A DNA stretch of 64,000 nucleotides from the NCBI RefSeq assembly GCF_002260845.1, contig NZ_BEDT01000001.1, positions 186,001-250,000 on the forward strand, given 5' to 3'. The number at the start of each line of letters is the position of its first letter. Positions within the stretch are counted from its first letter, which is position 1. Positions 24,763 through 35,099 of the stretch are shown here, one piece after another. The notes below the pieces were generated by a model. That model saw only the letters and a program-made list of their open reading frames with translations. It ran no database searches and had not been told where the DNA came from. Origin of the DNA: Pseudolactococcus reticulitermitis (GTDB taxonomy: Bacteria; Bacillota; Bacilli; Lactobacillales; Streptococcaceae). A program made the position numbers and the translations under genes.

Positions 24763-24791
24763 GCTTTTTGCTAAATTATTTTATCATCCGC

Positions 24792-24857
24792 TCACAAATC
24801 AAAAATCTTCCCCAGATTTAAGAGATTATCCGGATCAAAACCCCGTTTAAAGACTTT
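24792..24857 (-). pseudogene. 3' remnant of a second glcD-type oxidase gene
   Basis: The minus strand encodes FKRGFDPDNLLNLGKIFDL followed by a stop, nearly the same as the C-terminus of the intact oxidase at 33795-35099 (LKRAFDPENILNPGKIFDL). The DNA aligns without gaps over about 65 bases at roughly three quarters identity, starting with 17 identical bases across the stop codon. Nothing upstream of the fragment matches, so only the last 20 or so codons remain. It lies after the 2-hydroxyacid dehydrogenase gene and before the rplS promoter. Confidence 0.8.
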
Positions 24858-25011: not shown

Positions 25012-26007
25012 TTAGCAATCTTTTATCAATCCTTTTTCTTCCAGCTCAACAATATTGGCTTTCAAAACCTCTGCAGATTGTTGATAAGCGGCTAATTCTG
25101 CCTCTGTCAAATCAATTTCGATAATTTGATCAATGCCTTGGCGATTTAAAATGGCAGGTGCACCGATATAAACATCTTCAACGCCATACTCGCCAGTTAA
25201 ATAGGCTGAAATGGGTAAAATTCGATTATTTTCGCTTAGAATGGTTTCCGTAATCATGACCAGACATGAGGCGATACCGTATGACGTATTCCCCTTATCT
25301 GCAAAAATATCCACACCTATTTTTCTAACATAGTCTTCCAATGTTTCAAAAAATTGGTGATGACAGTCATAGGTTGTATATTTTTCGAGCCAAGTCAAAA
25401 TCGGTATGCTGCCAATCGTCAAATGAGACCAGTTTATAAATCCTGAATTGCCATGTTCTCCAAGTATAAACCCTTTAATATCGTTAGAATTGACATTTAA
25501 TTTATCTGCTATAACTGCATGTAAACGGGCTGTATCCAGTAGTGTCCCAGTGCCAATGACCTGACGCCTGGGCAAGGCAGAAACACGCTGGACGACTTGG
25601 GTCAAGGCATCTACTGGATTACTCACTACAAGTATCACACCAGCAAAACCATTCGCCATGATTTCAGTCGTAATTGAGGTCATCATTCGTACATTCTGCT
25701 GAAGAAGCCCTAACCGATCCTTATCCTCGCCAAATTTTGCTTGGGGGGCATTTGCCGTAATCACCACGAGATCAGCATCTCGCACATCGCTGTAATTGGC
25801 AATGTAAACTCGCTCACCACTGCATTTAGTAAAGGGTAGCGTATGATTTAAGTCTTCAACATCTGCCGCCACTTTCTTTTGATTGAGATCAATGATGCCA
25901 ATTGAAGCAGAAACGTTTTCACGTAATAGCGTATAAGCAAAGGTTGACCCAACAGCACCATCTCCAATGATGATGATTTTATCTGCTTTATGTTTAGTTT
26001 TTTTCAT
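25012..26007 (-). CDS. L-2-hydroxyacid (lactate/2-hydroxyisocaproate) dehydrogenase
   Basis: This 331-residue NAD-dependent enzyme is of the LDH/L-HicDH family and interconverts a 2-oxoacid and an L-2-hydroxyacid. The Rossmann motif IGDGAVGSTFAY is near the N-terminus, the substrate-binding arginine is in DKDRLGLLQQN, and the catalytic histidine is in GEHGNS (about residue 190). ATG 26007 overlaps the upstream stop by four bases (ATGA) and follows GGGAGAGG, so translation is coupled. It follows a PLP enzyme that could supply the oxoacid. It diverges from canonical housekeeping LDHs, so 2-hydroxyisocaproate-type activity is more likely, but the substrate is inferred. Confidence 0.8.
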   Translation of the reverse strand: MKKTKHKADKIIIIGDGAVGSTFAYTLLRENVSASIGIIDLNQKKVAADVEDLNHTLPFTKCSGERVYIANYSDVRDADLVVITANAPQAKFGEDKDRLGLLQQNVRMMTSITTEIMANGFAGVILVVSNPVDALTQVVQRVSALPRRQVIGTGTLLDTARLHAVIADKLNVNSNDIKGFILGEHGNSGFINWSHLTIGSIPILTWLEKYTTYDCHHQFFETLEDYVRKIGVDIFADKGNTSYGIASCLVMITETILSENNRILPISAYLTGEYGVEDVYIGAPAILNRQGIDQIIEIDLTEAELAAYQQSAEVLKANIVELEEKGLIKDC

Positions 26008-27191
26008 GACCTCTCCCATTGCTCATAACTCTCTCTCATGCGATTCAGCACTTCCTGTAACATGTTTTTGGTAATCGCAAGATTTAATCGCACAAAGCCT
26101 TCACCATCTTGCACAAAATAACTTCCGGGTACTGTGGTCAACCGTGCCTGTGTGAAAAATGCTGTCATGTCTACTTCATCGCTGAAAAGTTCAGAAATAT
26201 CTAGCCAAGCCAGAAAAGAAGAATCTGCTTCCATTACTTTTATCTTGGGCATATTTTTTTCGACAAAATCATAGAAAATTTCAAAATTACTCTGCATGTA
26301 TGCGGTCAACTCATCTAGCCATTGTTCCCCATGCTGATAGGCTGAAATCACTGCTGGCACAGCAAAAACATGAGGCGAAGTAATCGCATTTTTCGTGAGT
26401 TGCTGGTAGAGGGTTTCTCTAATCTTCTCATTTGGAATCGCAACGTAAGAAACCTTCAAACCGCCTAGATTAAAGGCTTTGTTCGGTGATAAACATAGAA
26501 TACAGTTTTGCGCAATATCAGCGTGAGCATTAAAAATGCTTGAAAAACTCTCCCGCTCAAACAAAATATCCCGATGAATTTCATCACAAACCAGCAAGAC
26601 ATCATATTTTAAGCAAAGTTCTGCTATTTTTTCTAATTCTACTTTCGACCACACGCGACCTGATGGATTTTGCGGACTGCAAAAGATGAAAACTTTGACA
26701 GATTTTGTCTGCATCTGATGCTCGATATTTTCAAAGTCTAAGTCATAGCGATTGTCTTTGCGAATCAATGGGCTACAACAGAGTTGCCGATTGTTATTTT
26801 CGATAGCTTCAGCAAATGGTGCGTAAGCTGGTGTGTTAATCAAAACACTCTCATTTTCTTTCGTAAAGGCTTGAACGATATAATGCAGCGTCGAAACCGT
26901 CCCAAAGGTCAATCGAATCCAGTCTTTTTCCAATTCAAGATTAAATCGGCGTTTATTCCAAGCAATCACTGCCTCGTAAAAATCATCGGTTACGGATGTA
27001 TAGCTATACTCGCCCATTTCTGCACGCGCAAGCATCGCTTCTTTTATTTCTGGCAGGCATTCAAAATCAATATCTGCCAAATCTAAAGGAATAGCATCTT
27101 GTCCTAGATGGAATTTTTCCTTAATCATTTTCGGACTCCATTTTCGGCAATTTGTCTGTCTCCGATCTCTTACTTTATCAAAATCATACAT
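26004..27191 (-). CDS. MalY/PatB-type PLP enzyme (C-S lyase/aminotransferase)
   Basis: This 395-residue fold-type I PLP enzyme belongs to the MalY/PatB group, which cleaves cystathionine and other S-conjugated cysteines to pyruvate, ammonia and a thiol. The opening DKVRDRRQTNCRKWSP and IPLDLADIDFECLPEIKEAM are typical, and the PLP lysine is in LSPNKAFNLGGLKVSY (about residue 237). AGAGGG precedes the start. It lies five bases from the M24 peptidase gene stop and overlaps the dehydrogenase gene. Its place in a PTS-peptidase operon suggests catabolism of an amino acid released from a transported conjugate. A plain aminotransferase role is also possible. Confidence 0.82.
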   Translation of the reverse strand: MYDFDKVRDRRQTNCRKWSPKMIKEKFHLGQDAIPLDLADIDFECLPEIKEAMLARAEMGEYSYTSVTDDFYEAVIAWNKRRFNLELEKDWIRLTFGTVSTLHYIVQAFTKENESVLINTPAYAPFAEAIENNNRQLCCSPLIRKDNRYDLDFENIEHQMQTKSVKVFIFCSPQNPSGRVWSKVELEKIAELCLKYDVLLVCDEIHRDILFERESFSSIFNAHADIAQNCILCLSPNKAFNLGGLKVSYVAIPNEKIRETLYQQLTKNAITSPHVFAVPAVISAYQHGEQWLDELTAYMQSNFEIFYDFVEKNMPKIKVMEADSSFLAWLDISELFSDEVDMTAFFTQARLTTVPGSYFVQDGEGFVRLNLAITKNMLQEVLNRMRESYEQWERS

Positions 27192-27195
27192 AGTT

Positions 27196-28266
27196 TTATC
27201 CCTCTAATACTAGCAGCTTCTTACTAGACTTGTTGAGTGGTGTTCCCACATTATCAATCAGCGCCACATCATCCTCAATCCGGACACCGCCTAAATTTGG
27301 TACATAAATCCCCGGTTCACAACTCATGACCATGTAATTTTCAAGCATCATCTTGCCTGTTGGATTCAAAATCGGCAAATCGCCACCGCGACCAATCCCA
27401 TGTCCTAAGCCATGCGAAAAATACTCCCCATACCCTGCCTGCTCAATGATACGACGAGCGGCAGCATCCACTTCTTGTCCAGTCTTACCTACCTTAACAT
27501 GTTCAATTCCTGCCAATTGCGCAGCGAGAACCGTTTCATAAATCGTTTTCATTTCAGCTGTTGCGCTACCCAGGACAATGGTTCTGGTCATATCTGATTG
27601 ATAATCGTCTAGGGTGACACCAAAATCAATCATCACAAATTCTCCCGATTGCATGGTTTTACTTGTTGGTCGACCATGTGGATAGGCTGTGCGATTACCA
27701 CTGGTAATAATGCTATCAAAAGCCATGCTACTCGCCCCTTTGTTCAAACAAAGATAGGTAATCAAAGCGGACAGTTCATATTCTTTCATTCCGACATGAA
27801 TTTTTGGCAAAATTTCAGTAAAGACCTCGTCTGTCAAAGCACAAGCTGCTTTGATTTTCTCAATTTCACAAGGCAACTTGATACTGCGAATTTCAGCAAG
27901 TTCATTTTCCCATAAATTAATGTTCAATGATTGCGTCTTCAATTCATCGTATTCACTAATGGTAAGTGCTGAGCTCTCAACAGCCAATTGTGTGATATGT
28001 TTTTCTCGCAAAATTGACACAAGACCAGCAATATAGCTGCCTTTAGGGACAACATTTATCTGGAAACCAGAAGTCGTCTCAATGGCTTCACCCTCATAAC
28101 GACCATCTAAAATCATCCATGCTGCTTCCTGTGAAATTAATAAATAGACACCGCTACCACTCAAAGCACCAAAATATTTTTTGTTGACATTTGAATGAAC
28201 TAAAACAGCTTCCAACTTTCTTTTCGCCAAAAGATGTCTAACCTTTTCAATCCCTATTTCGTTCAT
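27196..28266 (-). CDS. M24-family Xaa-Pro aminopeptidase/dipeptidase (YpdF/PepQ-like)
   Basis: This 356-residue cytoplasmic metallopeptidase has a creatinase-type N-terminal domain and the pita-bread M24 catalytic domain. Metal ligands are visible in MIDFGVTLDDYQSDMTRT, SHGLGHGIGRGGDLP, SCEPGIYVP and GVRIEDDV. ATG 28266 with GAAAGGG before it is preferred. A longer frame to 28320 runs into a repeated leader sequence and is rejected. The gene follows the PTS EIIC gene after a perfect 17-base hairpin. An M24 plus M42 peptidase pair with a PTS is also found in E. coli (fry-ypdEF). Confidence 0.88.
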   Translation of the reverse strand: MNEIGIEKVRHLLAKRKLEAVLVHSNVNKKYFGALSGSGVYLLISQEAAWMILDGRYEGEAIETTSGFQINVVPKGSYIAGLVSILREKHITQLAVESSALTISEYDELKTQSLNINLWENELAEIRSIKLPCEIEKIKAACALTDEVFTEILPKIHVGMKEYELSALITYLCLNKGASSMAFDSIITSGNRTAYPHGRPTSKTMQSGEFVMIDFGVTLDDYQSDMTRTIVLGSATAEMKTIYETVLAAQLAGIEHVKVGKTGQEVDAAARRIIEQAGYGEYFSHGLGHGIGRGGDLPILNPTGKMMLENYMVMSCEPGIYVPNLGGVRIEDDVALIDNVGTPLNKSSKKLLVLEG

Positions 28267-28319
28267 TTTCTTTCCCTTTCTGTGCTGATGTCTCACCCAA
28301 GCGGGGGCATTTGCGAACA

Positions 28320-28339
28320 CGTCCGCTCAAAGTCTTTCT
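28320..28339 (-). repeat. 20-base leader repeat shared with ppiB
   Basis: AGAAAGACTTTGAGCGGACG on the minus strand is identical to 13995-14014 in the ppiB leader. In both places a GCTTGG-containing segment follows before the ribosome binding site. Confidence 0.7.
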
Positions 28340-28343
28340 ATAA

Positions 28344-28378
28344 AGGATACCTCTAAAAATGATTTTTAGAGGTATCCT
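28344..28378. repeat. Perfect 17-base palindrome inside the PTS-peptidase operon
   Basis: AGGATACCTCTAAAAAT and its complement flank one central base, 22 bases after the EIIC stop. No T-run follows on the minus strand, so it is more likely an mRNA-processing or stability element than a full terminator. Confidence 0.7.
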
Positions 28379-28400
28379 AATGTGCTATGCTATTGACTTT

Positions 28401-29750
28401 TTAAAAATCCAGTTCTAAACCTGCTAAAATATCCAAATCTTCGTCTGCTACGATATCTTCAATCGCTTTGTTCGTTTTTTCAGATTCTTGACTTAATTCT
28501 TCACGTTCCATAATTTTGAAGAATGGCCAGTAAATCGCAACTGCTAAGACGAGTTGAAGCGCGCAAACCAAAATCGTACGCCAGTCTCCATTGGTCAAAA
28601 AGCCTTCTAAGAATACCCCAACATAAGGGGGATCAAAAACTGGTTTCTTGAGCCAGCCCCAATGCATGAAGAACATCGGGAGCGTGCCGATAATCGCACC
28701 ACCGAAAACGTGTGGAATAAACATGACTGGATTTAAAATGATGGGGGCACCAAATAAAATCGGTTCATTGATACCAAAAAGCGCTGGAAATAAAGCAACT
28801 TTCCCGATTTTTTTATAGCGAATACTTTTAGAGAGCATACAAGCAATGATACAACCAATACTGATACCACAACCTGTGAAACCAAAGAAGGCGCTACTTG
28901 TCCCAGCTGTATAAAAATGAGGTAGGGCTTTGCCCGCTTGAAGTGCTGCAATATTCTCAGCGATAAAAGCCACGCGAATTGGACCAGTAATTGGACTGAA
29001 AACAGAGGTGTGAATCCCAAAGAAGAAAATCAGACACATCATAAAGTGGAGTACCAATACTGCCCAAGGATTATCCATGCTCCCTACAAGTGGTGCTAAA
29101 ACCTTGGTTAAAATCGTTGGTGGTAACTCACCAATTGTCGCCATTAAAACAAATCGAAGCACGATGAACGTCCCACCAACTATCAAAGTAACCGGTATGA
29201 GTTCAAATGATCGAGAAACGAAATCAGGAACACCTTCTGGCATGTTGATTGTGATATTTCTTTCCTTACAAAAATGATAAAGTTCAACCGTCAATAAGGC
29301 ACAAATCATAGAAGTAAATAAGCCTTTTGCACCTAAACTGGCAAGTTGTAGATTACCATCTTCCCCAAAGGTAGCAACCATGAATAAAAAGGCAAAGGTT
29401 GAGAGTGTGATACACCCTGGAATGTAAAGTTTATAGTGATTTCCTAGATTATAGGAGATGGCCATACAGGAATATAGACCAATCATGCCGATTGATAGTG
29501 TAACAGGCAAGTTGACAATTTCATCGTTGTTCAAAATGAATTGACTAATAGGATTGTTTTCGCCTAACATATTAGGTAGGGCAGGCAAAATTGCGAAGAA
29601 ACTCCCTAAAATGGTAAAGGGTGTCATTGCAACCATACCAGCCTTAATCGCACTCAAGTGAGGCTGATTATCAACCTTATGTGCAATCGGTAGAAAGATT
29701 CGATTCATCATCGCTTCAAATCGAGAGAATAATCCAGCGTTACGAGTCAT
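28401..29750 (-). CDS. PTS EIIC, lactose/cellobiose family
   Basis: This 449-residue membrane protein is the channel and sugar-binding unit of a lactose/cellobiose-family PTS. It has about ten helices. The family features NEPILFGAPIILNPVMFIPH (substrate loop, about residues 335-354) and FFGIHTSVFSPI are present. It is encoded with separate EIIB and EIIA proteins, giving a complete permease. The C-terminal 35 residues are acidic and polar. The usual phospho-beta-glycosidase gene is absent, and peptidase genes flank it, so its sugar or sugar conjugate is unknown. Confidence 0.9.
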   Translation of the reverse strand: MTRNAGLFSRFEAMMNRIFLPIAHKVDNQPHLSAIKAGMVAMTPFTILGSFFAILPALPNMLGENNPISQFILNNDEIVNLPVTLSIGMIGLYSCMAISYNLGNHYKLYIPGCITLSTFAFLFMVATFGEDGNLQLASLGAKGLFTSMICALLTVELYHFCKERNITINMPEGVPDFVSRSFELIPVTLIVGGTFIVLRFVLMATIGELPPTILTKVLAPLVGSMDNPWAVLVLHFMMCLIFFFGIHTSVFSPITGPIRVAFIAENIAALQAGKALPHFYTAGTSSAFFGFTGCGISIGCIIACMLSKSIRYKKIGKVALFPALFGINEPILFGAPIILNPVMFIPHVFGGAIIGTLPMFFMHWGWLKKPVFDPPYVGVFLEGFLTNGDWRTILVCALQLVLAVAIYWPFFKIMEREELSQESEKTNKAIEDIVADEDLDILAGLELDF

Positions 29751-29772
29751 TTTGTTTACCTCATTTTTCTAT

Positions 29773-30111
29773 TTAAGTCCCTTGTTGCAACTGATGTTTT
29801 TTGTGTGTAATTAAAGCTAACTTCATCACGGTTGCCCCATCCATCTGACCATAAACATCTTTGTCAATAACAGCATAAGGGATATTTCGAGGTTTCAAAA
29901 TTGACGCAATAAACTCAACTTTGTGTGTAATTTGTGGTCCAACCAGCACGACATCCCAGCCATCGACTTGATCTTCTAGGGAATCTGCTGGAATCGCCGT
30001 AAAATCAAAATCTTCTATATTCATTTTGGCACTCGCCTGAATGACTTTTTTCATATTTTGCATCAACATATTGGTAGAAAAACCACCTGCACAACATAAT
30101 AAAATTTTCAT
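29773..30111 (-). CDS. PTS EIIB, lactose/cellobiose family
   Basis: This 112-residue cytoplasmic phosphocarrier passes phosphate from EIIA to the incoming sugar. The phosphorylated cysteine is in the P-loop MKILLCCAGGFSTNML, most likely Cys7, and VVLVGPQITHKVEF is the usual second region. It lies between EIIA (71-base gap) and EIIC (22-base gap). Confidence 0.9.
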   Translation of the reverse strand: MKILLCCAGGFSTNMLMQNMKKVIQASAKMNIEDFDFTAIPADSLEDQVDGWDVVLVGPQITHKVEFIASILKPRNIPYAVIDKDVYGQMDGATVMKLALITHKKHQLQQGT

Positions 30112-30182
30112 TTCTACTTCTCCTCTTTTTGAATTGCTCTATATTTTATAACCTAAATTTACATCTTAAACGACTTTTTATA

Positions 30183-30518
30183 TTAATTTTTTGCATCATT
30201 AACCTTTGAATACAGATGGTCAAAGACTTCAACCAATTCTTCAATCAAGTCTCTCGCAAGCTGACTCGTCATATAGTGATCCTGCGCATGTACCATCAGC
30301 ATCCCCACGACCGATTCACCTTCTTGACTCATCTCCTGTTGAATCCATTGTGTCTGCATATTATGCGCTTCTAAATCCAGATGCCGTGATTCTTTGATTA
30401 AGGCTCTTGCCTTATCGAATTCCTTTGTTTTCACACATTTCAAGGCTTCAAAGGCTTTGGCTTTACTTTCACCTGAGCTCGAAATAATTTTGACAATGGC
30501 TAATTCATTTTCATTCAT
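30183..30518 (-). CDS. PTS EIIA, lactose/cellobiose family
   Basis: This 111-residue helical protein takes phosphate from HPr. The conserved MLMVHAQDHYMTSQLARDL contains the active-site histidine near residue 78. It is 18 bases downstream of the M42 peptidase gene, clearly in the same operon. Confidence 0.9.
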   Translation of the reverse strand: MNENELAIVKIISSSGESKAKAFEALKCVKTKEFDKARALIKESRHLDLEAHNMQTQWIQQEMSQEGESVVGMLMVHAQDHYMTSQLARDLIEELVEVFDHLYSKVNDAKN

Positions 30519-30536
30519 TCTATTTTCCCTCTATCA

Positions 30537-31577
30537 TTAAATAAACTTTTGAACACGTTGCAAGACATCTTGATCAAAATTAATCAACATTTCTTGATAT
30601 AAGGCAACCATTTGTTCAATATCTTTGATATTCACAATCGAATAAGCACAATGACCATAACGAACAGGCACAATATTAACAACTGTTGGTTTACCTTCAT
30701 TGACCAAATGTGCTTCACCGCCATCTGTTCCCCCTGTTTTGAACATATCTAGTTGAAGCGGAATCGTAGCATTTTTAGCACTTTCTTTCACATAAAGTTG
30801 CAGATTTCTATTCGGCAGCAAGGTGCGATCATAGTGTGTTAAGATTGGTCCTTTGCCAATTTGACGCTGATTGGTATCATCACGAACAAATTCTGTGCTA
30901 AATGTTGCGACATCTACGACCAAAACAATATCTGGATTCATTTTTTGAACCGCTGTTTTAGCACCGCGAATGCCCACTTCTTCACTACTTGTACCAACCA
31001 AATGCAAGGTATAGTCTAAAGTCACACCTTCTAACTGCTTCAACAACTCGCCAATCACAAAACAGCCTAAACGATCATCGAAAGCTTTTCCTGCATAGAT
31101 ATGATCAACCGCAAATTTTTCAAACTCTGTTGCATAGGTCACCATATCGCCAACATCAATCCCTAAATCATAGACTTCCCGTGCTGTTGTCGCACCAATA
31201 TCACAATAGAGACCCTCCGTCAGACCATCTTGATAAGTCCCATTGATGACACCGCTGATTTTCTCCCCCTTCAAAGTTGTAATGCGGACCTTCTGTAAAT
31301 GCTGCGCCAAAGGTTTAACACCACCGACAACCATCAAGCGAATCAAACCAAAATCGCTGACACTGCGCACCATAAAACCGACCTCGTCCATATGGGCACA
31401 AATCATGATACTTTTATCAGATTTCCCTTTTTTCGTGAAAATAATACTTCCTAAACCATCAGTCTCAACACTTGAATACTTACCTTCAAGCTCCTGTAAC
31501 ATGACATCACGAACTTCCTGCTCGTTACTCGCAATCGCATCAGCGTTGGATAGTTTTTCTAAAAACTCAATGTTCAT
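30537..31577 (-). CDS. M42-family aminopeptidase (FrvX/YpdE/PepA-like)
   Basis: This 346-residue metallo-aminopeptidase has the M42 ligands: ICAHMDEVGFMV (His), KAFDDRLGC (bridging Asp), GTSSEEVGIRGA (catalytic Glu pair), VLVVDVATFS (Asp) and GHCAYS (His). Relatives are cytoplasmic, dodecameric and cut N-terminal residues from short peptides. It is the second gene of the operon, 18 bases from the PRD regulator. E. coli frvX and ypdE are M42 genes next to PTS genes, so the association recurs, but its purpose is not established. Confidence 0.9.
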   Translation of the reverse strand: MNIEFLEKLSNADAIASNEQEVRDVMLQELEGKYSSVETDGLGSIIFTKKGKSDKSIMICAHMDEVGFMVRSVSDFGLIRLMVVGGVKPLAQHLQKVRITTLKGEKISGVINGTYQDGLTEGLYCDIGATTAREVYDLGIDVGDMVTYATEFEKFAVDHIYAGKAFDDRLGCFVIGELLKQLEGVTLDYTLHLVGTSSEEVGIRGAKTAVQKMNPDIVLVVDVATFSTEFVRDDTNQRQIGKGPILTHYDRTLLPNRNLQLYVKESAKNATIPLQLDMFKTGGTDGGEAHLVNEGKPTVVNIVPVRYGHCAYSIVNIKDIEQMVALYQEMLINFDQDVLQRVQKFI

Positions 31578-31595
31578 TTTTAAATCTTCTTTCTA

Positions 31596-33521
31596 TTAAT
31601 TATTATTTCCAACGATACAGTTGACAAATGCGGCATGATCTTTCGCATTTAAAAGCTCACTATAGCGTTTGGGATCGTTCACAACATCATTAAACCATTC
31701 AAAGAACAGGTTCATATAGTTCCTGTCTGCCTGACTGATGGCAATTAGCAGCACCAGACGAACTTCATATTCCCCCCACATGATGGGTTGATCCAGTTGC
31801 ATCACTGATAGACAGGACTCATTTGCCATCACTTTCAAACTATGTGGCATGGCAAAACCATAGGCAAAAGAGGTGGCTGAAAAAAATTCTCTTTTAAAAA
31901 CATCTGCCTTAAAGTCTTCTGGCGTGTAACCTTTTTCATAAAGAGCATTTAGCATGAATGACAAGATATTTTCTACTGTCTCAGAACCCGTGACTTTGTT
32001 GCGATAAAAGACATCTGGTCGAATCAGCTCAACCACCTTTTGCTCAAACTTACCATGAAGTTTTTGATGATCTAATTGGGTCAGAGCATCAATTACCAGC
32101 CCTTCATCAGCGTGTGTGACAAATAGTGTCAATTGAACTGTCGTAATAGGCAAGGGATGTCTTAGTGGCAGTGAGGTCAAAATTAAATCTGGATTCAAGT
32201 CGCGAACGAGGCCTTCTTCAAAATAACTTAGATGCGCGATTATCTCGATATCGCCTTGAAATCGTGATTCAAGCTTGGACACAAATTGACTGGCAAGCCC
32301 TTTCTCATCGGGATGAATGATGACCGTTCGATATTTGTTAGCATTTCGACTTGTATCATAAGAGGCACCGAGATGAATCGCTAAGAAAGCGATTTCATTT
32401 TCAGAGATTGTAAAGTGCATCTTATCTTCAATAATTTCGCCAAGTCTAACTGCCATATCAAAAATCAAAGGATAGTGACGCTTCAATTCTTGCCGATAAG
32501 GGTTTTGCACCGTCAGTTGATTTTCTTGACGATTGATTAACCCTCGCATATGACGCTCTAAACCGCTTCTCAGATGTTCATCTTTATAAAAATTGATAAC
32601 ATATTGAGACGCCAGTACGGTCAATATTTCATTGACTAATGCCTTAATGGATTTATCATCACTCTGTTCAACCCTTAATTTCTTAAAATTAGCATTTCGA
32701 TTTCCTAGTAAGATTGCTAGCAAAACAATTTCTTCTTCTTTCAGCTCAATCGGTAAGCTCTTTGAAATTTGTTGATAAAAGTTTTCAGCAATTTGATACT
32801 CGATACTTTCTTGTAATGCACCATCATGATAAGGTAAACTCACAAAATTTCGATTTAACATACGCTCAATGCCAATCCCAATATGCAACATCATCATTGG
32901 AATATCAATTTCTCGAACCCGATATTGATAACGACTACAGATCCAATCAAATTGTGCTTTAATGGTCATCAAGTCTAGTTTTGAAAAAAGGGTTGAAATT
33001 GTCGTTAGATTCAGGAAATTTCCTTTCGTTTCCTTAGCCAAAAGCGTTTTATACAGATGGCGTTTTTCACCCTCGCTTCCTTTCAAAGAAAGAATATTTT
33101 TGGAGCGTGCCAATTTGAGCGACGGATAATCCTGTAAAATTTGACGCACCTTTTTCAAATCATTTTCAAGTGTCGACTCACTAATGAATACCTGCTGCTG
33201 AAAGCTAATCAGGTTGATTTCCTTTTTACTCACCAATAGATGTTTCAGCAAAAACAAGGCACGCTCATTAGCATTTTGTGGTAGCGCCATTGATTGTGAT
33301 GCTTCAACAACTTTTATCGTCTTCTTACGCTTAGATAGACGATAGCCCTCTCTTCGATTGGATTGAATCAAAGTGAAGCCATAAAAGTCATTAATTTTGC
33401 CTATATCTGATCGGATCGTTCTATCTGAAACAGACATCAGGTAAGCTAATGCCTTCCCTGTTAGCCAGGAACCATCCTCTCTAAGATAGGCCATTAATTT
33501 TTCCTGTCGTGTCGTCAACAT
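31596..33521 (-). CDS. PRD-containing transcriptional activator (LicR/MtlR-like)
   Basis: This 641-residue regulator has two N-terminal helix-turn-helix domains, two PRD domains (conserved histidines in MMMLHIGIGIERML and FLAIHLGASYD), a Gat-type EIIB-like segment and a C-terminal EIIA-fru-like domain with histidine in YGFAMPHSLKV. The PTS controls such proteins by phosphorylation, so it should activate the operon when the substrate is transported. The ATG at 33521 is preferred to a longer frame because GGGGTGAGG precedes it and the promoter lies within the longer frame. It is the first gene of the operon and is cotranscribed with the PTS. Confidence 0.88.
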   Translation of the reverse strand: MLTTRQEKLMAYLREDGSWLTGKALAYLMSVSDRTIRSDIGKINDFYGFTLIQSNRREGYRLSKRKKTIKVVEASQSMALPQNANERALFLLKHLLVSKKEINLISFQQQVFISESTLENDLKKVRQILQDYPSLKLARSKNILSLKGSEGEKRHLYKTLLAKETKGNFLNLTTISTLFSKLDLMTIKAQFDWICSRYQYRVREIDIPMMMLHIGIGIERMLNRNFVSLPYHDGALQESIEYQIAENFYQQISKSLPIELKEEEIVLLAILLGNRNANFKKLRVEQSDDKSIKALVNEILTVLASQYVINFYKDEHLRSGLERHMRGLINRQENQLTVQNPYRQELKRHYPLIFDMAVRLGEIIEDKMHFTISENEIAFLAIHLGASYDTSRNANKYRTVIIHPDEKGLASQFVSKLESRFQGDIEIIAHLSYFEEGLVRDLNPDLILTSLPLRHPLPITTVQLTLFVTHADEGLVIDALTQLDHQKLHGKFEQKVVELIRPDVFYRNKVTGSETVENILSFMLNALYEKGYTPEDFKADVFKREFFSATSFAYGFAMPHSLKVMANESCLSVMQLDQPIMWGEYEVRLVLLIAISQADRNYMNLFFEWFNDVVNDPKRYSELLNAKDHAAFVNCIVGNNN

Positions 33522-33548
33522 ACTTGCCTCACCCCTTCCACTACTATT

Positions 33549-33577
33549 AGTATAAACAAGTTTTTTACTCATTTAAA
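33549..33577 (-). promoter_or_regulatory. Promoter of the PTS-peptidase operon
   Basis: TTTAAA (33572-33577), a 17-base spacer and TATACT (33549-33554) on the minus strand. The weak -35 is consistent with activation by the regulator. Confidence 0.5.
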
Positions 33578-33783: not shown

Positions 33784-33794
33784 ATCTCTAGTGC

Positions 33795-35099
33795 TCACAA
33801 ATCAAAAATTTTTCCCGGATTCAGGATATTTTCTGGATCAAAAGCCCGTTTCAGCGCCTTCATGGCGACCAACTCGCTGGTTCCGATATATTTCTGGAAA
33901 TAAGTTTTTTTCAGCAGACCAATCCCGTGTTCCGCAGAAGGCTTGCCACCGACCTCAGCGACATAGGCATAGAGCTTATCCAGATAGCGCTCAAGTTTTT
34001 CTGCCCATGCCTCATCCGTCAAATCATTTTTGATAATGTTGGCATGGATATTGCCATCGCCTGCATGACCGAAAAAGATAGCAGATAATCCCTCATCTAT
34101 TGCCATTTGTTTCAACGCGATAATCGTCGGTGCGATTTTATTGACGGGAACGACCACGTCAAGCGGTTCTTGAATACTTTCAAGTTCAACTGAGGAGACG
34201 ATTGCCCCCCGAAGTTGCCAGACAGCATCGCGTGTCTGCGCATCCGTCAAAATCAGAGAGGCGTCACTCAGACTTGCTAAATAGGTCAGCTCGGTTTCTA
34301 GTTGTTCTACCGCATTGCCATCCAAAGTCATAAGTAGGAAAGCTTGCCCAGAAATATCAGGAAAGGCTAACTGCAAGGCACGCTCAGAATAAGCCATGCT
34401 GTCTCGCTCGAAAAATTCCAAGGCTGCAGGCACGAGACCTGATGCCAGAATTTCAAAAACTTTAGGCGATAACTGTGTCAAGCTCTCAAAGCCTAGTAAA
34501 ATATCACGACTGAATTTCGGCTTGGGCTGAATTTTTAAGTCAAGCTCAGTGATGACACCAAGTGTGCCTTCGCTCCCGATAAAAATATCTTTGAGATCAT
34601 AGCCAGAGCTATCTTTGCGGTTGATAGAGCCGACTTTGAGTTCACGACCATCCGCCAAAATCACGCGCATGGCTCGGATATTATCGCGCGTCACGCCATA
34701 TTTGACCGCCCGCATACCACCCGCATTGGTCGCAGCGTTCCCACCAATACTGGCTTCTTTGCTACCGGGGTCTGGTGCATAAAAATAGGGTGTCGCTGCT
34801 AGAAACTCTGAGATTTCAGCAATGGTCACACCTGCTTCAACGGTTAATGTCATCGTTTCAACATCTAGGTTAATAATCTGATGCATCTTTTCAAGACTCA
34901 TCAAGACTTGATTGTCATCAGGAAAGGTCGCCCCCGAAAGTCCTGTCTGCCCACCAATCGTGATTAATTTCTGCTGCTTTTTTCTAACTGCTTGTACGAT
35001 TGCGACGACGTCTGCTTGCGACCTTGGAAAATAAATCGCAGTAGCCTGACCGATTTCTCCTGTCACGCGATTGGTCAAGTAGTTTTCCGAAATCTCCAT
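33795..35099 (-). CDS. glcD: FAD-linked 2-hydroxyacid oxidase/dehydrogenase (GlcD/DLD-type)
   Basis: This 434-residue flavoprotein belongs to the VAO/PCMH-fold FAD_binding_4 family, which oxidises D-lactate, glycolate or similar acids. The FAD-binding core TIGGQTGLSGAT (about residues 46-57) and GGNAATNAGGMRAVKYGVTRDN (about 118-139, key glycines and His/Arg nearby) is complete, as is the C-terminal domain with HAGDGNIHANI and GEHGIGLLKK-like AEHGIGLLKK. The start overlaps the HAD stop by one base (TAATG). A decayed copy of its 3' end lies 9 kb downstream, beyond the PTS-peptidase operon. Confidence 0.88.
   Translation of the reverse strand: MEISENYLTNRVTGEIGQATAIYFPRSQADVVAIVQAVRKKQQKLITIGGQTGLSGATFPDDNQVLMSLEKMHQIINLDVETMTLTVEAGVTIAEISEFLAATPYFYAPDPGSKEASIGGNAATNAGGMRAVKYGVTRDNIRAMRVILADGRELKVGSINRKDSSGYDLKDIFIGSEGTLGVITELDLKIQPKPKFSRDILLGFESLTQLSPKVFEILASGLVPAALEFFERDSMAYSERALQLAFPDISGQAFLLMTLDGNAVEQLETELTYLASLSDASLILTDAQTRDAVWQLRGAIVSSVELESIQEPLDVVVPVNKIAPTIIALKQMAIDEGLSAIFFGHAGDGNIHANIIKNDLTDEAWAEKLERYLDKLYAYVAEVGGKPSAEHGIGLLKKTYFQKYIGTSELVAMKALKRAFDPENILNPGKIFDL

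Follow-up and report, generated by a model that had tools for sequence, protein, structure and literature searches.

A conserved, mobile operon that joins a Lac/Cel-family PTS to two metallopeptidases and a predicted C–S lyase

PTS operons are usually taken to be sugar pathways. What, then, is imported by a PTS whose post-import enzymes are peptidases and a predicted C–S lyase? Such an operon lies in the 64,000-nucleotide stretch of DNA analysed here (the window), which belongs to a 2.17-Mb Lactococcus genome. Eight open reading frames, all on the minus strand, run from 33572 to 25012 in the order PRD regulator, M42 peptidase, EIIA, EIIB, EIIC, M24 peptidase, PatB, dehydrogenase, with intergenic gaps of 4 to 80 bases, a 16-base overlap between the PatB and dehydrogenase genes, and no glycosidase gene within the operon. 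The open reading frames and HMM families confirm the gene order, the tight spacing and the lack of a glycosidase that the initial annotation had described, and the profile matches uphold its assignment of the PTS to the Lac/Cel family. For three genes, likelier starts with ribosome-binding sites are given in brackets:

31596–33572 (likely start 33521), minus strand: PRD/EIIA-2 transcriptional regulator (Pfam HTH_11, Mga, PRD twice, PTS_EIIA_2)
30537–31577, minus strand: M42 metallo-aminopeptidase, YpdE type (NCBIfam PRK09961, 460.7 bits against a cut-off of 412)
30183–30518, minus strand: PTS EIIA, Lac/Cel family (PF02255)
29773–30111, minus strand: PTS EIIB, Lac/Cel family (PF02302)
28401–29750, minus strand: PTS EIIC permease, Lac/Cel family (TIGR00410, 259.7 bits against a cut-off of 236)
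27196–28320 (likely start 28266), minus strand: M24 metallopeptidase with a creatinase N-terminal domain (PF00557)
26004–27191, minus strand: predicted PatB-family cysteine-S-conjugate β-lyase, PLP enzyme (TIGR04350, 371.4 bits against a cut-off of 340)
25012–26019 (likely start 26007), minus strand: L-2-hydroxyacid (lactate-family) dehydrogenase, accessory (TIGR01771, 329 bits against a cut-off of 303.6)

The catalytic residues of M42, M24, PatB, EIIA, EIIB and EIIC are intact and are kept in nearly all relatives. The metal ligands and the catalytic glutamate of M42 are present in 49 of 49 aligned sequences, His77 of EIIA in 44 of 44, Cys7 of EIIB in 45 of 45 and the PLP lysine of PatB, Lys238, in 45 of 45. 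All five metal ligands of M24 are conserved, and the second histidine of the usual HE.P motif is absent from the subgroup to which the window's enzyme belongs. Alignment of EIIC to the solved structure of ChbC (3qnq) matches His247 and Glu329 with His250 and Glu334 of ChbC, the pair that binds the sugar's C6 hydroxyl in that structure. The phospho-His, the phospho-Cys and the His/Glu sugar-site pair of a Lac/Cel PTS are all in place, and the EIIC proteins of these operons form a distinct single clade on the tree. The score above the TIGR04350 cut-off and the PLP lysine predict that the window's PatB is a C–S lyase; its closest solved structures are C–S lyases, with aminotransferases as distant kin. 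The dehydrogenase carries a three-residue insertion in its substrate loop relative to L. casei LDH. Scans for promoters and terminators gave signal near the shuffled background, and catabolite-repression (cre-like) sites in the window were no more numerous than expected by chance.

The operon has been inserted between glcD and rplS, which flank it in the window and follow each other directly, with nothing between them, in eight other Lactococcus genomes; the G+C content of the operon is 39%, compared with about 47% for glcD and gltB; and part of the glcD 3′ end is repeated on the far side of the operon:

24790–24848, minus strand: partial copy of the glcD 3′ end, 59 bases, downstream of the operon (insertion scar; 85% identical to 33793–33851)
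33793–33851, minus strand: glcD 3′ end that matches the scar copy, upstream of the operon (85% identity to 24790–24848)

The proteins of the operon share roughly 83–98% identity with their counterparts in L. raffinolactis NBRC 100932, a species to which the window's genome is close. The operon of this type strain (L023:5540-11937) has broken PRD, EIIC and M24 frames, which reflect either decay or sequencing errors, and an additional radical SAM activating-enzyme gene sits between its glcD and PRD genes.

We scanned 84,980 species genomes with the EIIC alignment as the sole query, a search blind to the neighbouring genes. It returned 80 loci, 45 of which carry an orthologous EIIC (at least 44% identity over most of the protein), while the EIICs of the remaining 35 are 27–37% identical. 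Within 7 kb of the orthologous EIICs lie M42 at 45 of 45 loci, PatB/MalY at 44 and M24 at 42; the sole locus without PatB stops at a contig end and is also one of those missing M24. Near the 35 distant EIICs there was neither an M42 nor an M24 gene (0/35), and just two weak aminotransferase-like matches. The association of M42 with EIIC (45/45 versus 0/35) is far beyond chance. Orthologous EIICs accompanied by phospho-β-glycosidases and lacking peptidases, the arrangement named beforehand as speaking against the proposal, is not the pattern at the 45 loci. An LDH-family gene is near just three of them (L. raffinolactis, C. nantensis and Floccifex), each time at a different place, and the dehydrogenase is therefore accessory and outside the core. 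The set of conserved partners proposed in the initial annotation accordingly keeps the PTS, the two peptidases and the PLP enzyme and loses the dehydrogenase as a core member; the pathway proposed there is supported in part. These genomic comparisons support the view that the PTS, M42, M24 and PatB/MalY constitute one functional set.

The hosts of the set span the Bacillota and the Actinomycetota and number at least 14 genera, including Lactococcus, Lacticaseibacillus, Latilactobacillus, Lactobacillus, Companilactobacillus, Enterococcus, Bavariicoccus, Listeria (L. grayi), Bacillus (B. renqingensis), Clostridium, Peptacetobacter, Faecalibacillus, Floccifex and Collinsella. The PRD gene stands first at most conserved loci, and the commonest orders are PRD-A-B-C-M24-M42-PatB (20 loci) and PRD-M42-A-B-C-M24-PatB (13 loci). 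An RDD-family membrane protein recurs as an additional member at 9 of the 45 loci.

The set is conserved even as its parts are exchanged. On the tree, the PLP enzymes of the operons split into two well-supported groups, one containing E. coli MalY and the other the window's PatB, and TIGR04350 is the top model for all ten operon PLP enzymes tested. Many operon relatives of the window's lyase are of the MalY type, although the window's enzyme belongs to the PatB-type clade. Mapped on the EIIC tree, PatB-type and MalY-type enzymes have replaced each other at least three times with the slot always filled; since the set stayed whole through these swaps, it is the function of the slot that is selected. 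The M24 enzymes likewise form two groups. One Peptacetobacter MAG holds two copies of the operon (L031 and L040), one with a PatB-type and one with a MalY-type enzyme, which suggests that the two types of operon handle different substrates.

Although the initial annotation offered the system as undescribed, its gene cluster had been drawn in 2018: Kato and Oikawa depicted nine genes in L. sakei LT-13 that are absent from strain LK-145, a strain-specific insertion like that of the window (PMC5845896). This 8-kb insertion carries the same set (PRD genes, an aminopeptidase, Lac/Cel IIA, IIB and IIC, a further aminopeptidase and a PLP enzyme) and differs from the window's operon in its MalY-subfamily PLP enzyme, an extra RDD protein and the lack of a dehydrogenase. 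The purified MalY of LT-13 is a β-lyase on L-Cys (kcat/Km 80.9), cystine and cystathionine; it also racemises 13 amino acids (for L-Ala, kcat/Km 13.7 and Km 169 mM) and has no activity on L-Ser (PMC5845896). That study made no wide genome comparison and proposed no pathway for the cluster (PMC5845896), and the conserved system went unrecognised there.

Three E. coli systems share some of these parts. The first, fryABC-ypdEF, likewise combines a PTS with one M42 (YpdE) and one M24 (YpdF) peptidase; it differs in having annotated FryB (EIIB) and FryC (EIIC), presumably of the fructose family, a multiphosphoryl FryA, and no PatB/MalY gene. The window's EIIC, as a Lac/Cel protein, is not of the FryABC type. 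Its M42 is 43% identical to YpdE and scores above the cut-off of the YpdE model, and YpdE nests inside the M42 clade of the operons (support 99). The M24 scores 237 bits with the YpdF model PRK09795 against a cut-off of 393, and the M24 tree, with its long branches, that of YpdF among them, gives YpdF no firm placement. The second system, frvABXR, together with its Listeria relatives (L181–L183), shares a PTS, an M42 and a PRD-type regulator, and in the Listeria forms a MalY-type enzyme is present as well; it differs in its fructose-type EIIA and EIIBC, its separate M42 lineage and its lack of M24. FrvX groups with the M42 enzymes of Listeria Fru-PTS operons, apart from the operon clade (support 99), and the window's M42 reaches 213 bits with PRK09864 against a cut-off of 569. 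The suggestion that PTS and peptidases came together more than once therefore stands for frv and is doubtful for fry, where the position of YpdE inside the operon clade implies that the link probably shares one ancestry and that the PTS part was exchanged. In the third system, malXY, and in Firmicute malXY-like pairs, a PTS permease adjoins a PatB/MalY β-lyase; there the permease is a glucose-family EIIBC and peptidases are absent, whereas the window combines a Lac/Cel EIIC with a PatB-type rather than a MalY-subfamily lyase. Open-licence papers on fry, frv and PTS–peptidase links yielded no substrate link for these peptidases, and a paper on L. paracasei malY no PTS link (PMC6004538).

The company of MalY and a PTS extends well beyond these examples. 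A MalY-type enzyme is present in 65 of 395 Lactobacillales genomes, and we read 60 of the loci with flanks of about 7 kb, or as far as the contig reached. A PTS permease lies within 6 kb of the MalY-type gene at all 60, and three PTS families are represented: by our reading of the gene listing, 34 loci have a Glc-family MalX-like permease, 15 the present Lac/Cel EIIC with M42, and 11 a Fru-family permease, with M42 at 7 of these 11. Pfam confirms the PTS families at example loci, and the MalX homologue that adjoins MalY at one locus (L141) had been guessed from the tree before the neighbourhood was read. A permease lies within 1.5 kb of 46 of the 60 MalY-type genes and of 1 of 26 ordinary PatB genes (after two MalY-type entries and two from the operon-related PatB clade had been set aside), a difference whose Fisher p of about 1e-10 overstates independence because the MalY loci are related. 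Some ordinary PatB genes have a transporter-like gene close by, together with either RidA or an M20-type peptidase (L235:8763-11643; L234:8304-11964); these clusters may be non-PTS forms of conjugate breakdown.

We propose that the operon is a single, horizontally moving catabolic pathway for an aminoacyl or cysteinyl-peptide conjugate bearing a sugar or polyol, a reading that we favour tentatively and would put a little short of probable. EIIC would import and phosphorylate a small conjugate that combines an aminoacyl part with a hydroxyl like that of a hexose; a short peptide whose cysteine bears a sugar or polyol is the likeliest candidate. M42 and M24 would trim the flanking residues of the phosphorylated conjugate, and PatB/MalY would split the Cβ–S bond to give a phosphorylated thiol, ammonia and, by way of 2-aminoacrylate, pyruvate. 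Where present, RidA would clear the aminoacrylate and the dehydrogenase would reduce the 2-oxoacid. The PRD regulator would turn the operon on while the operon's PTS carries phosphate away.

Several observations argue for this pathway. 2-Aminoacrylate, the product of β-elimination, is removed by RidA, and in Companilactobacillus (C. nantensis) the PatB gene overlaps at its end with a RidA gene; two other genomes have RidA close to MalY, at distances of 94 and 25 bases. These neighbours and the lyase activity of the L. sakei MalY are indirect signs that the PLP enzyme of the operon probably works by β-elimination. The match of EIIC to the ChbC sugar site, the constant partners of the orthologous EIIC, the refilled PLP slot and the PTS permease at every MalY locus read are consistent with the same pathway. 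The order peptidase then PatB is proven for Cys-Gly conjugates in the body-odour pathway of Staphylococcus hominis (DtpT, PepV, ShPatB), which also ends in a PatB lyase acting on a Cys-Gly S-conjugate, and which differs in using a peptide transporter instead of a PTS and in having no dedicated transporter or peptidase (PMC11742315). Against the pathway stand (i) the lack in the operon of an enzyme that consumes the expected phospho-thiol, (ii) the fact that sugar–cysteine conjugates are known mostly from cooking (PMC11203769), (iii) the racemase activity of the L. sakei MalY on many amino acids, and (iv) the neighbour genes, which single out no one sugar.

The PTS might instead import an ordinary sugar or glucoside while the peptidases and the lyase do a separate, co-controlled job, either in peptide or sulfur nutrition or in a regulation like that of MalY on MalT. 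E. coli MalY represses MalT independently of its own enzyme activity (PMC11203769), and MalX reportedly recognises glucose and maltose (PMC5845896, citing Reidl and Boos 1991). We nevertheless consider this rather unlikely: the operon has neither a MalT-type activator nor a glycosidase, the PLP lysine is invariant, and a slot filled from two subfamilies fits a shared chemistry better than it fits one protein contact.

That the PLP enzyme is a racemase or an aminotransferase, acting on amino acids from glycated or D-amino-acid-containing peptides imported by the PTS, would agree with the racemisation of 13 amino acids by a MalY of the same cluster type and with the distant kinship of aminotransferases. 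We find it improbable, as the L. sakei enzyme has a Km for Ala of 150–169 mM and a kcat/Km about six times higher for L-Cys (PMC5845896), ten of ten operon enzymes match a C–S lyase model best, and RidA next to the lyase suggests that an enamine is formed.

In Peptacetobacter, at the locus whose EIIC is nearest to that of the window, a GalNAc-type catabolic cluster that has NagA-, AgaS-, PfkB- and aldolase-like genes but no PTS itself is found immediately upstream of the operon; in Companilactobacillus there is an AgaS gene on the downstream side. Both would suit an O-glycosylated Ser/Thr peptide (for example GalNAc-Ser/Thr) from which the PLP enzyme would split off the phosphorylated sugar directly by elimination; this is very unlikely, given that such neighbours occur at just 2 of 45 loci, that AgaS, as a marker of a GalNAc-type substrate, shows no enrichment (25 of 40 operon genomes versus 48 of 98 controls, p 0.19), that the L. 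sakei MalY is inactive on L-Ser (PMC5845896) and that an alkoxide is a poor leaving group. AgaS as such a marker was rejected on the lack of enrichment and because an aga-type operon with a PTS of its own lies elsewhere in the genome of the window.

That operon (G000:C1, about 334800–342600; L210:5791-13550) is complete, with GntR, AgaS, NagA, a PfkB kinase, an aldolase and a mannose-family PTS. The same genome also has a second Lac/Cel PTS operon with a PRD regulator and no glycosidase (G000:C1, about 716700–724300; L029:5727-13324), which includes glucosamine-isomerase-like, aldo/keto reductase, xylose-isomerase-like and Gfo/Idh oxidoreductase genes and has look-alikes at L026 and L027.

The system described here is a real, conserved and mobile PTS–peptidase–lyase system, encountered once before, in L. 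sakei, without interpretation. As its PTS, peptidases and lyase are kept despite replacement by distant relatives, what is kept is therefore function. If the conjugate pathway is correct, its substrates would be a candidate nutrient class, one with no PTS assignment in the literature searched and possibly one that gives rise to volatile thiols in the gut and in fermented food. It is conceivable, if doubtful, that Lac/Cel, Glc (MalX) and Fru (Frv) PTSs that occur with PatB/MalY, often with M42 and M24, make up one unrecognised class that imports and phosphorylates sugar–amino-acid (cysteinyl) conjugates, with PLP-dependent β-elimination in the place of the glycosidase and E. coli malXY as a reduced member. 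The most useful by-product is the rule that MalY accompanies a PTS, because it turns the questions posed by malXY, fry and frv into one test; it gives these E. coli puzzles a shared, testable frame and hints at the reason why malX and malY form a pair.
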